A stretch of 34,893 bases of DNA from an uncultured Phascolarctobacterium sp. (GTDB taxonomy: Bacteria; Bacillota; Negativicutes; Acidaminococcales; Acidaminococcaceae), in contig CANREP010000020.1 of assembly GCA_947629685.1 (NCBI GenBank), positions 1-34,893 on the forward strand, written 5' to 3'. Below, in pieces: positions 23,928-33,098 of this stretch (positions within the stretch are counted from its first letter, which is position 1; every line of letters begins with the position of its first letter). The position numbers and the translations under genes are program-made. The notes beneath the pieces were generated by a model. The model made no database searches. It had not been told where the DNA came from and saw nothing but the letters and a program-made list of their open reading frames with translations.

Positions 23928-23970
23928 AATAGTCAACCGGCGCTTTGCCGCTGGTTGACTATTTTTTTTT
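23928..23970 (+). terminator. Terminator of the liv operon
   Basis: AATAGTCAACC (23928-23938) pairs with GGTTGACTATT (23953-23963) with an inner CGGC/GCCG pairing, followed by a run of Ts through 23970. The 3' arm contains TTGACT, which also looks like the -35 box of the ecf promoter. Confidence 0.92.
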
Positions 23971-23984
23971 ACAATTATATAATA
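23955..23984 (+). promoter_or_regulatory. Promoter of the ecf-truA operon, embedded in the liv terminator
   Basis: TTGACT (23955-23960), 18 bases, TATAAT (23979-23984). The -35 lies in the 3' arm of the liv terminator. The predicted start near 23991 gives a short leader, which favours the GTG 24017 start of ecfA1 over the ATG at 24002. Confidence 0.7.
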
Positions 23985-24016
23985 AGGTCAATGACTAAAA
24001 TATGGGGGCAGATGCT

Positions 24017-24841
24017 GTGATCTCTGTTAAGGAGCTTAAACATATATATACGGACGCTGACGGACATGAGGTCAGCGCCCTGAACGGAATAAATCTTGAC
24101 ATACCTGCCGGAGAGTTTATTGCCATCATCGGCGCTAACGGCGGCGGCAAGTCTACGTTGGCGCGGCATCTGAACGCGCTGCTGCTGCCGACGTCGGGAA
24201 AATGCATCGTAGACGGGCTGGATACGGCAGAGGAGAAAAATCTGTGGGATATCCGCCAGCATGTGGGGATGGTGTTCCAAAATCCCGATAACCAGATTGT
24301 TGCGGCCATCGTCGAAGAAGATGTGGCCTTCGGGCCGGAAAATGTTGGCGTACCCGGGCCGGAAATCAAAGGTCGTGTTGACCGGGCGCTGGCTGCCGTA
24401 GGGATGTCGGAGTATGCCAAGCACGCGCCCCATCTTTTGAGCGGCGGGCAAAAGCAGCGCATCGCCATTGCAGGCGTACTGGCGCTGGAGCCCAGGGTCA
24501 TCGTCCTGGACGAGCCTACGGCCATGCTGGATCCGCAGGGCAGAAAGGAAATCGTGCGTACGGTAAAGCAGCTGAACAAGGAAAAAGGCATTACCATCGT
24601 CTATATTACCCACTATATGACAGAAGCGCTGGAAGCCGACAGGGTCGTAGTCATGGAAAAAGGGAATATCCGTTTTTCCGGCACGCCCCACGAAGTATTC
24701 AGCAGGGTGGACGAGCTGGAAAAAGCCGGATTGGAAGCGCCGCTGGCAGCCAAGATTGCCAGCGAGCTGCGTAAAAGCGGCATCAAATTGCCTAAGGAAA
24801 TTATTACCGACGAGGAGTTGGCAGAGGTATTATGTCGATAG
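24017..24841 (+). CDS. ecfA1: ECF transporter ATPase EcfA1
   Basis: The 274-residue ATPase powers vitamin uptake as part of an energy-coupling factor module. It has Walker A GANGGGKST, the Q-loop FQNPDNQ, signature LLSGGQKQRIAIAGVLAL, Walker B VIVLDEPTAMLDP and switch His in YITHYM. The FQNPDNQ motif is typical of CbiO/EcfA. I chose GTG 24017 after GGGGG (24004-24008); an in-frame ATG at 24002 has no binding site and would lie about 11 bases from the predicted transcript start. The end overlaps ecfA2 by ten bases. The S component that gives substrate specificity is not in the window. Confidence 0.92.
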   Translation: MISVKELKHIYTDADGHEVSALNGINLDIPAGEFIAIIGANGGGKSTLARHLNALLLPTSGKCIVDGLDTAEEKNLWDIRQHVGMVFQNPDNQIVAAIVEEDVAFGPENVGVPGPEIKGRVDRALAAVGMSEYAKHAPHLLSGGQKQRIAIAGVLALEPRVIVLDEPTAMLDPQGRKEIVRTVKQLNKEKGITIVYITHYMTEALEADRVVVMEKGNIRFSGTPHEVFSRVDELEKAGLEAPLAAKIASELRKSGIKLPKEIITDEELAEVLCR

Positions 24842-25689
24842 ATATCAAAAATATTTGTTATACATATATGCGTGGCACTCCCTTTGAAAAAAAGGCGCTG
24901 GACGACGTATCCGTCAGCATCGACAAAGGCGAGATCGTGGCCGTTATCGGGCATACGGGCAGCGGCAAGTCGACGCTGGTGCAGCATCTTAACGGACTGC
25001 TCAGGCCGGATGCAGGGCAGGTTGCCGTCGACGGCATCAGTCTGGCAGGTAAAGACGCGGCGGCTAAGAAAGCGCGTCAGCTGGTAGGTATGGTGTTTCA
25101 GTACCCCGAGCATCAGATTTTTGCCGAAACGGTTTATGAAGATATTGCCTTCGGCCCCCGCAACCGGGGGTTTGAGCCGGAAGAAGTAGATAAACAGGTA
25201 CGCGAGGCCATGGCTTTTGTCGGGCTGGATTTTGAAACATTTGCCCGTCGTTCGCCTTTTCGGCTGAGCGGCGGCCAGATGCGCCGTGTGGCCATTGCCG
25301 GAGTCGTAGCCATGAATCCAGACTATCTTGTCTTGGACGAGCCGTCGGCAGGGCTGGACCCGCGCAGCCGCAATGCCGTGTTTAAGGAAATCATGGCGCT
25401 GCATAAAAGCCGCGGTATTGCCATCGTGCTGGTTACTCACAGCATGGAAGAAGCCGTAAAATACGCCAAACGGATGTTGGTAATCAACCAGGGCAGAATT
25501 TTATTTGACGGTAATCCTGCCGATATTTTTAAAAATCATCAGCAAAAGCTGGTGGAAGTAGGGATGGATGAGCCGCAGGTCTTCAAACTGGCTGCGCTGC
25601 TGCGCAAGCAGGGAATGGAACTGCCGCAGGGCATTACCGATGACGTTACGCTGCTGCAGATGATTAAGAAAGCAAAGGGGTGGAGATAA
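24832..25689 (+). CDS. ecfA2: ECF transporter ATPase EcfA2
   Basis: The 285-residue ATPase has Walker A GHTGSGKST, the Q-loop FQYPEHQIF, signature LSGGQMRRVAIAGVVAM, Walker B LVLDEPSAGLDP and switch His in LVTHSME. The FQYPEHQ motif distinguishes EcfA2 from EcfA1. They form a heterodimer that binds EcfT. The start overlaps ecfA1, and the stop overlaps the ecfT start by one base. Confidence 0.93.
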   Translation: MSIDIKNICYTYMRGTPFEKKALDDVSVSIDKGEIVAVIGHTGSGKSTLVQHLNGLLRPDAGQVAVDGISLAGKDAAAKKARQLVGMVFQYPEHQIFAETVYEDIAFGPRNRGFEPEEVDKQVREAMAFVGLDFETFARRSPFRLSGGQMRRVAIAGVVAMNPDYLVLDEPSAGLDPRSRNAVFKEIMALHKSRGIAIVLVTHSMEEAVKYAKRMLVINQGRILFDGNPADIFKNHQQKLVEVGMDEPQVFKLAALLRKQGMELPQGITDDVTLLQMIKKAKGWR

Positions 25690-26507
25690 TGCTGAGCGAT
25701 ATTACCCTGGGACAATATTTTCCGGGAAATTCTTTTATTCACCGTCTTGACCCCCGTACTAAGATTTTAGCGACGCTGATATACATTATCGCTATCTTTT
25801 TTGCCGACAGTTTTTTATCCTATGCCATCCTGACTGGCTTTGCCTTGGCAGTCATCCTGATTTCCCGGCTGCCGCTGCTGATGGTGCTGAAATCTTTGAA
25901 GCCCATCATGATTATCGTCGTGCTGACGCTGGGCATCCATATGTTTACGGCTCCGGGCGAAACGGTACTTTTTACCTGGAAGTTTTTGTCTGTAACCCAG
26001 GAAGGTTTAGAACTGGGCGTTAAGATGTCTTTGCGGCTGATGCTTTTACTGTTATTTTCATCTGTGCTGACTTTTACTACTTCGCCTATCGTGTTGACGG
26101 ACGGTATCGAAAGCCTTTTGCGCCCGTTTAAGAAGATTGGCGTACCGGCGCACGAGCTGGCCATGATGATGACTATTGCGCTGCGTTTTATTCCGACGCT
26201 GCTGGAAGAAACTGACCGTATTATGAAGGCGCAGACGGCAAGAGGCGCTGATTTCAGCAGCGGCAATCTGCTGCAGCGGGCCAAAAATATGCTGCCGCTT
26301 CTGGTGCCGCTGTTTATCAGCGCTTTCCGCAGAGCCGATGAACTGGCTGTAGCTATGGAGTCCCGCTGCTACCGCGGCGGCGAGGGGCGCACCAGGATGC
26401 ATGAGCTGCTGTATAAAGGCATCGACTACGCGGCTTTCGGCACTATTTTTGCCTTGACGGCGCTGCTGGCCTTTCTGCGCTGGGGTACTGCCTTATGCGC
26501 ACTATAA
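25689..26507 (+). CDS. ecfT: ECF transporter transmembrane subunit EcfT
   Basis: The 272-residue membrane protein begins LSDITLGQYFPGNSFIHRLDPRTKI and has about five to six hydrophobic spans. Two coupling-helix motifs typical of EcfT are present: AQTARGAD near residue 180 and SRCYRGGEGRTR near 225. It links the ATPases to interchangeable S components for vitamins or metals. ATG 25689 (TAATG) is preferred over GTG 25680, which would lie inside the binding site AAAGGGG. The end overlaps truA by 13 bases. Confidence 0.92.
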   Translation: MLSDITLGQYFPGNSFIHRLDPRTKILATLIYIIAIFFADSFLSYAILTGFALAVILISRLPLLMVLKSLKPIMIIVVLTLGIHMFTAPGETVLFTWKFLSVTQEGLELGVKMSLRLMLLLLFSSVLTFTTSPIVLTDGIESLLRPFKKIGVPAHELAMMMTIALRFIPTLLEETDRIMKAQTARGADFSSGNLLQRAKNMLPLLVPLFISAFRRADELAVAMESRCYRGGEGRTRMHELLYKGIDYAAFGTIFALTALLAFLRWGTALCAL

Positions 26508-30654: not shown

Positions 30655-32007
30655 ATGAAGCTGGTACAGGATCTGACCAAGGGCAGCGTTACCGGGACGA
30701 TGCTGCTGTTTTCTCTGCCGCTGATACTGGGCAATCTGCTGCAGCAGTTTTATAACATTGCCGATACGCTGATTGTCGGAAAATACCTGGGCGCGGCTGC
30801 CTTGGCTGCCGTAGGTTCTTCATACGCCCTGATGGTCTTTTTAAATTCCATCTTGCTGGGGATGTGCATGGGCTGCGGCGTGCTTTTTTCCATCTGCTGG
30901 GGGCGGGGCGACCTGTCTGCGCTCAGGCAGAAGGTCTATCTTTCCTTTCTGAGTATCGGCTTGTTTTCCGTATTGCTGACGGCGGCGGTGTTTTTCTGTA
31001 TCGACGATATCCTGCGCTGGCTACAGGTACCGCAGGAGGTTTTCCCGCTTATGCGCAACTACCTCTGGTATATTTTTTACGGTATTATCTTTACCTTTAT
31101 TTATAATTACGGAGCTTCGCTTTTGCGTGCGGTGGGCAATTCAGTCGTGCCGCTGTTTTTTTTGGGTGCGGCTGCCCTGCTCAATATCGTGCTGGATATT
31201 GCACTGATCCTCTATTTTGATATGGGCGTAGCCGGTGCCGCGCTGGCTACCGTAGCGGCGCAGCTGGCGGCGGCAGTGGGAATCACGGCCTATATCTTCC
31301 TGCGGTTTCCGCAGCTGCTGCCGGATAGGGCCAGCAGGTGTTTTTCCGGCCTTGCTGTACGTGAAATCATGCGTTTTTCCCTACTCACCTGTATGCAGCA
31401 GTCGGTGATGAATTTCGGCATCCTCATGGTGCAGGGACTGGTCAACAGCTTCGGTACCGTCATCATGGCGGCTTTTGCCGCTGCGGTCAAGATAGATTCC
31501 TTTGCTTATATGCCGGTGCAGGATTTCGGCAACGCCTTTTCTACGTTTATTGCCCAGAATTTTGGCGCCGGTAAATTAGAGCGCATCAAACAGGGCATCC
31601 GCAGCGCCTTTATCACTGCGATTAGTTTTTCCCTGTTTGTTTCCGTACTGGTATGCGTCTTTGCCCGGCAGCTGATGGAAATCTTTGTGGACAGCAGTGA
31701 AACGGCTATTATCCAGGCGGGAGTGGAATATCTTTGGATAGAAGGCAGCTTTTACTGCGGTATCGGTTGTCTGTTTCTTTTTTACGGCCTGTACCGTGCC
31801 GTCAAAATGCCGGAAATCTCCATCGTGCTGACGGTCATCTCACTTGGTACCAGGGTAGCGCTGGCCTATCTGCTATCGGCAGTGCCGGCTATCGGCGTGC
31901 TGGGTATCTGGGCGGCTATCCCCATCGGCTGGTTTTTGGCAGATGCTGCCGGCTGGCTGTATTACAGAAAGCGCAGAGCGGAGATTGCCAGGATGCTCAT
32001 GCCTTAA
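30655..32007 (+). CDS. MATE family antiporter (second copy)
   Basis: The 450-residue, roughly twelve-span protein has the MATE features LGNLLQQFYNIADTLIVGKYLG in the first half and MPVQDFGNAFSTFIAQNFGAGKLERI in the second. It is only distantly like the MATE protein at 14733, and is closer to the MATE type beginning DLTKGSVTGTMLLFSLPLILG, common in gut Firmicutes. Its start is one base after the chrA2 stop, so it belongs to that operon. The substrate is unknown. Confidence 0.9.
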   Translation: MKLVQDLTKGSVTGTMLLFSLPLILGNLLQQFYNIADTLIVGKYLGAAALAAVGSSYALMVFLNSILLGMCMGCGVLFSICWGRGDLSALRQKVYLSFLSIGLFSVLLTAAVFFCIDDILRWLQVPQEVFPLMRNYLWYIFYGIIFTFIYNYGASLLRAVGNSVVPLFFLGAAALLNIVLDIALILYFDMGVAGAALATVAAQLAAAVGITAYIFLRFPQLLPDRASRCFSGLAVREIMRFSLLTCMQQSVMNFGILMVQGLVNSFGTVIMAAFAAAVKIDSFAYMPVQDFGNAFSTFIAQNFGAGKLERIKQGIRSAFITAISFSLFVSVLVCVFARQLMEIFVDSSETAIIQAGVEYLWIEGSFYCGIGCLFLFYGLYRAVKMPEISIVLTVISLGTRVALAYLLSAVPAIGVLGIWAAIPIGWFLADAAGWLYYRKRRAEIARMLMP

Positions 32008-32037
32008 AGTAAACCTTGGCAAAAAAACAGTTGACGA
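32007..32037. promoter_or_regulatory. BirA-like operator 1, overlapping the bioB -35
   Basis: GTAAAC (32009-32014), 15 bases, GTTGAC (32030-32035). This is an imperfect inverted repeat related to the BirA box (TTGTAAACC...GGTTTACAA). It overlaps the -35 box. A 27-base segment here is an inverted copy of operator 2 (20 of 27 positions match). Confidence 0.6.
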
Positions 32038-32059
32038 TAAAATGCAGCAGCTATATAAT
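32031..32059 (+). promoter_or_regulatory. bioB promoter
   Basis: TTGACG (32031-32036), a 17-base spacer, TATAAT (32054-32059). The start is expected near 32066, exactly where operator 2 begins. Confidence 0.85.
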
Positions 32060-32065
32060 ATGAAA

Positions 32066-32096
32066 TAGTTAACTGTTTAAAAATCAAGGTTTACAT
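32066..32096. promoter_or_regulatory. BirA-like operator 2, at the transcript start
   Basis: TAGTTAAC (32066-32073), 15 bases, GTTTACAT (32089-32096). The right half matches the BirA half-site GGTTTACAA at eight of nine positions. Binding here would block the initial transcribed region. Confidence 0.65.
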
Positions 32097-32108: not shown

Positions 32109-33098
32109 ATGCAGAAGATAATTGCATTGGCTGATAAAGTTTTGGCAGGGGAGGATATTACCCGGCAGGAGGCAGAATTTTTAATCAACGTCAGCGACGA
32201 CGATACCATGCTGCTGTTGGCTATCGCCGATAAAATCAGACAGAAATTTGCCGGCAGCGACGTGGACTGCTGCGCTATTTTGAACGGACGCAGCGGCAAA
32301 TGCAGCGAAAACTGCAAGTTTTGCGCGCAGTCTGCCCATTACAACACCGGCGTTAAAGAATATCCTTTGCTTTCAGAAGAAGAAATATTTGCTGCGGCGC
32401 AAAAGGCTAAAGCGGCAGGCGCAGTACGTTTTTCCGTTGTTACCAGCGGCAGGGGGCAGAGTAAGGCAGATGATTTTGCCAATATCTGCCATGTGCTGCA
32501 ACGCATTAAAAAGGAACTGGGCATCGAGGTCTGCGCTTCTTTAGGCATCCTTACTTTAGAGCAGGCCAAAGCCTTAAAGGAAGCGGGCGTAACCCGTTAC
32601 CATTCCAATCTGGAAACGGCTGGCAGCTATTTCCCGGACATCTGCACCACTCATACCTATGAGGATAAATTCGTAACTATCAAGAACGCTCAGGCAGCAG
32701 GGCTGCGCGTCTGCAGCGGCGGCATCATGGGCCTTGGCGAAACGCCGGAGCAGCGCGTAGAAATGGCCTTCACGCTGAAAGAACTGGGCATTGATTCCGT
32801 GCCGCTCAACCTGCTGACGCCGATTGCCGGCACGCCCTTTGCTGGCAACAAGGCTTTGGCTCCGCTGGAAATACTGCGTGCTTTCGCTGTTTTCCGCTTT
32901 ATCCTGCCTCACGCGCAGATCAGGACAGCGGGCGGACGCGAAGTAAACCTGCGCGACCTGCAGGCTTTGGCTCTAAACGGCGGCGCCAGCGGCATTATGA
33001 TCGGCGGCTATCTGACCACGGCGGGCCGCGGTACGGACAAGGATCTGCAGATGCTGCGCGACCTTGGCCGCGGACGTTCGCTGCCTCAGCTTGACTAA
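32109..33098 (+). CDS. bioB: Biotin synthase
   Basis: The 329-residue radical SAM enzyme inserts sulfur into dethiobiotin. The CxxxCxxC cluster motif is C65, C69, C72 (KCSENCKFCAQS). The YNTGVKEYPLL, HSNLET and CSGGIMGLGET segments are typical, as is the GGREVNL stretch with the Arg ligand of the auxiliary [2Fe-2S] cluster. The start ATG follows AGGGGTGAG. It stands alone here; other biotin genes must lie elsewhere or be absent. Two BirA-like sites suggest repression by biotin. Confidence 0.95.
   Translation: MQKIIALADKVLAGEDITRQEAEFLINVSDDDTMLLLAIADKIRQKFAGSDVDCCAILNGRSGKCSENCKFCAQSAHYNTGVKEYPLLSEEEIFAAAQKAKAAGAVRFSVVTSGRGQSKADDFANICHVLQRIKKELGIEVCASLGILTLEQAKALKEAGVTRYHSNLETAGSYFPDICTTHTYEDKFVTIKNAQAAGLRVCSGGIMGLGETPEQRVEMAFTLKELGIDSVPLNLLTPIAGTPFAGNKALAPLEILRAFAVFRFILPHAQIRTAGGREVNLRDLQALALNGGASGIMIGGYLTTAGRGTDKDLQMLRDLGRGRSLPQLD

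Follow-up and report, generated by a model that had tools for sequence, protein, structure and literature searches.

BirA is the textbook single-operator switch. In Bacillus subtilis it binds a palindrome of the GTTAACC type, for which it needs both half-sites, and three operons carry one BirA operator each (PMC4016012). The organism studied here, a gut bacterium of the Phascolarctobacterium type, resembles the group II ligase regulons of B. subtilis and Staphylococcus aureus, which combine a BirA bearing a helix-turn-helix (HTH) with GTTAACC-type palindromes at the operons of biotin synthesis and uptake (PMC4016012, PMC6391492). It differs from them, as one operator per operon has been reported in these two species, whereas here two operators bracket the promoters of synthesis genes. 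The half-sites and their spacing are also those of the delta-proteobacterial sites and of the general BirA consensus TTGTAAACC-N14/15-GGTTTACAA (PMC545781), but delta-proteobacteria are reported to have 1-2 BirA sites per genome, with one per operon (PMC545781), against eight sites of the N15 or N16 form at five promoters here. Two repressor sites at biotin operons are likewise known from the tandem BioR boxes of Paracoccus and Brucella; BioR, however, is a GntR-family protein unlike BirA, and the BirA of P. denitrificans is without a DNA-binding domain (PMC4554459). As the motif found here matches BirA and the genome encodes a group II BirA, BioR is not needed. Within the reach of our literature search, outside which key regulon sources lay, no description of paired BirA operators was found; this coverage is incomplete and the novelty of the pairs is thus a moderate claim. 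With that degree of confidence, we consider paired BirA operators at biotin-synthesis promoters to be a little-described variant of the classic switch.

The window (the whole stretch of 34,893 nucleotides analysed here) contains one such pair, at the promoter of bioB:

30655..32007, + strand: membrane-protein gene 5' of bioB, MATE-type by inspection (ORF list)
32009..32035, + strand: BirA-type operator 1, GTAAAC-N15-GTTGAC (sequence, genome-wide pattern search, half-sites identical in the sister species G058)
32031..32036, + strand: predicted bioB -35 box, TTGACG (consensus scan, 11/12 matches together with the -10 box)
32054..32059, + strand: predicted bioB -10 box, TATAAT, between both operators (consensus scan; retained in relatives)
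32068..32094, + strand: BirA-type operator 2, GTTAAC-N15-GTTTAC (sequence, genome-wide pattern search, conserved in relatives)
32109..33098, + strand: bioB, biotin synthase, 329 aa (Radical_SAM and BATS domains; 98% identity in G058)

The original prediction, that two BirA-like operators flank the bioB promoter, was confirmed for both sites, which are exact and 59 bp apart from start to start. Each has exact 6-mer half-sites separated by N15 and fits the GTWAACC-N13/14-GGTTWAC palindrome type, with the inner flanking bases of the GTAAACC form on one side only; half-sites and N15 spacing match the BirA box. With a DNA-binding BirA in the genome and conservation in relatives (see below), the prediction withstood all the refuting conditions that had been set for it. 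The inverted-copy relationship that had been claimed was also reproduced: once one operator is reverse-complemented, 20 of the 27 bases agree, with the outer 10 perfect and a single mismatch in the inner 11. Operator 1 starts 2 bases past the stop of the upstream membrane-protein gene, which is on the same strand as bioB. A consensus scan places the promoter, TTGACG-17-TATAAT, at 32031-32059, and the right half of operator 1 (32030-32035) therefore contains the start of the -35 box, while operator 2 begins about 8 bases past the -10 box, at the predicted +1. A chance origin of the pair is excluded by the genome-wide pattern counts and by shuffling: the shuffled window gave 0.09 operators of such form (spacer 14-17) per shuffle, and an operator pair 27-130 bp apart arose in none of 300 window shuffles.

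In the whole genome (1.78 Mb), a search for the N15 form gave 7 matches and its reversed-pattern control 2; for N16 the numbers were 1 and 0. A search with other spacers (N13, N14, N17, N18) yielded only seven further matches (control, 3). All eight exact N15/N16 operators (8/8) are at genes of biotin synthesis or uptake and overlap the promoter, and they are distributed as three pairs and two singles among five biotin-linked promoters. The pairs belong to bioB, to membrane protein-bioWF (62 bp from start to start) and to bioY-bioD-bioA (58 bp), and the single operators to ecfA1-ecfA2-ecfT and to the MaoC-like-bioY2-thiolase operon. The upstream operator of each of the five promoters has GTTGAC as its right half, which coincides with the predicted -35 box, and in the pairs the second operator sits near +1. 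The bioY-bioD-bioA operon combines transport with synthesis genes, which blurs the split between paired and single promoters.

We favour, with a probability of about 0.7, the reading that the two sites are separate operators, at which two independently binding BirA dimers would lock the promoter twice. When biotin is plentiful, dimers of BirA with biotinyl-AMP would sit on both operators, the first covering the -35 box, which its own half-site GTTGAC supplies, and the second spanning the region from the predicted transcript start to about +28. Either dimer alone would keep RNA polymerase from binding or initiating; as one would be enough, the two should multiply repression and steepen the response with no contact between them. 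In an illustrative model, two independent locks reduce leakage by a factor of about 100 at 10 K, and the transition becomes sharper. Steeper control from the pair is possible, a loop not being required for it.

The pair in front of bioB is conserved among relatives. All seven N15 sites recur in the sister species G058, where the three pairs have spacings of 59, 59 and 63 bp, and its half-sites are identical to those of the window genome at 84 of 84 bases, versus 209 of 281 (74%) for the other aligned promoter bases (p 9e-10). Among the regions upstream of bioB in 90 Negativicutes sequences, two exact operators without overlap were present in 35 and one in a further 38, genome counts that are not independent since the species are related; when these regions were shuffled, even one operator appeared in just 0.1%. 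Within the family of the window, identified as Acidaminococcaceae from named relatives, bioB pairs occur in genera g1, g3, g4, g6, g7, g8, g11, g14, g15 and g17, and a single bioB operator in g2 and g5. A single operator is also what f17 and f27-f30 have at bioB. Many relatives thus run bioB with one operator, and the second is not essential. The named relatives with a bioB pair include Phascolarctobacterium faecium DSM 14760 (L114), and two Pelotomaculum records likewise have pairs. Because cultured relatives such as P. faecium DSM 14760 carry the pair, its role is testable.

The distances between operators differ among lineages, from 36 to 127 bp, and outside the window's own family no 10.5-bp helical phase was detected (R 0.08, p 0.92). 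Variable distances with no helical phase argue against a loop or a fixed contact. Helical phasing and looping were therefore rejected, and the suggestion that the spacing of the sites fixes a loop or a contact did not hold; judging from the sequences, looping at the pair is unlikely. More broadly, binding of the dimers could be cooperative, through direct contact or through a promoter loop, in which case the pair would act as a single unit. For most genera of the family that have pairs, the bioB spacing is 57-59 bp, which speaks for this, as do the two exceptions, g6 (44 bp) and g4 (38 bp), where adjacent dimers would be near enough to meet. However, a fixed promoter geometry can explain the 57-59 bp of the family as well, and 59 bp corresponds to 5.6 turns, which would put the dimers on nearly opposite faces of the helix. 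With the spread of distances in other lineages, this makes a cooperative unit unlikely.

Conservation extending into the spacer had also been taken as a trace of duplication of the whole site. The spacers of the two bioB operators match at 9 of 15 positions (P ~0.03 by composition), which is unremarkable, as operators at other promoters do as well or better; the spacer of bioB operator 1 is in fact closer to that of the inverted bioY operator 1 (11/15) than to that of its own partner, and in G058 the bioB match drops to 6/15. Whole-site duplication was rejected, since the resemblance is nothing unusual and does not persist in the sister species.

The position of operator 2 in the transcribed leader raises another explanation, namely that it serves mainly as a roadblock against polymerase reading through from the upstream gene. 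A terminator scan found none between the upstream membrane-protein gene and bioB, which makes roadblocking a legitimate rival. In addition, bioY-bioD-bioA likewise follows closely behind bioWF, and in several Sporomusaceae-like families both operators are downstream of the -10 box. Yet the bioWF promoter is paired despite a hairpin-like stretch upstream of it, and operator 1 would already block read-through by itself. We therefore consider it very unlikely that this is the main function of operator 2.

The genome encodes a BirA with an N-terminal HTH (HTH_11, 66.5 bits; BPL, 73.9; BPL_C, 49.3; all over cut-off). BirA is full length in most of 59 genomes of the family. In genus g16 the BirA match starts at residue 62-68, the HTH being missing; bioB is absent, and counts of the operator pattern are overall not above control. 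Genus g9, in comparison, has lost bioB but has kept a full-length BirA and one bioY2 operator. The contrast between the two genera ties the operator motif to the DNA-binding domain of BirA, the joint absence being seen in one genus only. This loss of the motif with the HTH, together with the fit to the BirA consensus (PMC545781), makes it extremely improbable that the second site is used by some other regulator, or as an RNA structure of the leader, and is not a BirA operator. The leader version is further disfavoured, as an RNA stem formed from GTTAAC and GTTTAC would contain a U-U mismatch. The bioB leader RNA folds no better than its shuffles (z 0.70) and no Rfam family matches in the window; with no stable fold and no Rfam match, an RNA leader element or riboswitch was rejected.

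The genome has two biotin ligases, the second without an N-terminal HTH. At L002:695-3142 (G000 contig C1), the gene for the latter lies between those for a beta-type subunit of a Na+ malonate decarboxylase and a HutP-like protein, and it perhaps encodes a dedicated ligase for the decarboxylase.

The paired layout at the biotin-synthesis promoters (bioB, membrane protein-bioWF and bioY-bioD-bioA) would provide a tighter and steeper shut-off than that of the single-operator transport genes; as only operator 1 is kept at the ecfA1 and MaoC-like-bioY2 promoters, we propose that their repression is less complete and their shut-off later. In a comparison of genomes, one operator was found at the MaoC-bioY2 or bioY2 promoter in 8/8, and one at the orthologous place of ecfA1 in 12/12; these counts, too, come from related genomes and are not independent. 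There are exceptions to the split: in G022 the membrane-protein promoter carries a single operator, and the half-sites of genus g18 are interleaved. One might speculate, and we put the chances at somewhat below even, that operator number is a regulatory code, with two for synthesis and one for uptake, which would have evolved repeatedly and in different geometries and by which rising biotin would shut synthesis before uptake. A lineage with two operators at synthesis genes and one at uptake genes provides a natural comparison of operator number with the threshold and steepness of the response.

The bioB promoter of g18 (L029, ~80-39 bases upstream of bioB) contains a perfect 42-bp palindrome, GTTAACTATAATTATGTTAACGTTAACATAATTATAGTTAAC, with two interleaved operators at a 15-bp offset and with TATAAT inside.

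Several genes of the regulon deserve mention. The bioWF operon, one of those with paired operators, opens with a gene (L042:1750-2250, G000 contig C1) for a membrane protein of 166 aa that gave no Pfam, NCBIfam or PDB match. This protein is conserved in six further genomes, preceding bioWF wherever its position was seen, and is a candidate part of a transporter, perhaps for pimelate. It is followed by a single 631-aa protein in which BioW and BioF are fused (L042:2247-4142). At L043:2-2910, a single-operator BirA-type promoter precedes genes for a MaoC-like protein, a second BioY, a thiolase and an acyl-CoA-ligase-like protein, which possibly form a route to the pimeloyl precursor.

The other single-operator promoter, that of the ecf operon, is located in the same window:

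23928-23963, + strand: intrinsic-terminator-like hairpin, the stem of which is the palindrome of the ecf operator (terminator scan)
23932..23959, + strand: the one BirA-type operator at the ecf operon, GTCAAC-N16-GTTGAC (pattern search, control 0)
23955..23983, + strand: predicted ecf promoter, TTGACT-17-TATAAT (11/12 matches), with the -35 box in the right half of the operator
24002..26507, + strand: ecfA1-ecfA2-ecfT, the energy-coupling module for vitamin transporters (matches above cut-off to ECF_ATPase_1 and ECF_ATPase_2 of NCBIfam)

The assignment of ecfT is based on a sub-cut-off match to ECF_T_CbiQ. The operator is like the delta-proteobacterial GTCAACC-N14-GGTTGAC (PMC545781). Terminator-like hairpin, BirA-type operator and -35 box thus share one short element (23928-23983), just 3' of an upstream liv-type gene. 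The hairpin has a stem of 15 pairs followed by a T run, and a fold of -23.1 kcal/mol (z -6.2). Only genera g1, g9 and g15 have this form, whereas the orthologous operators of g4, g6, g8 and g14 are without the hairpin.
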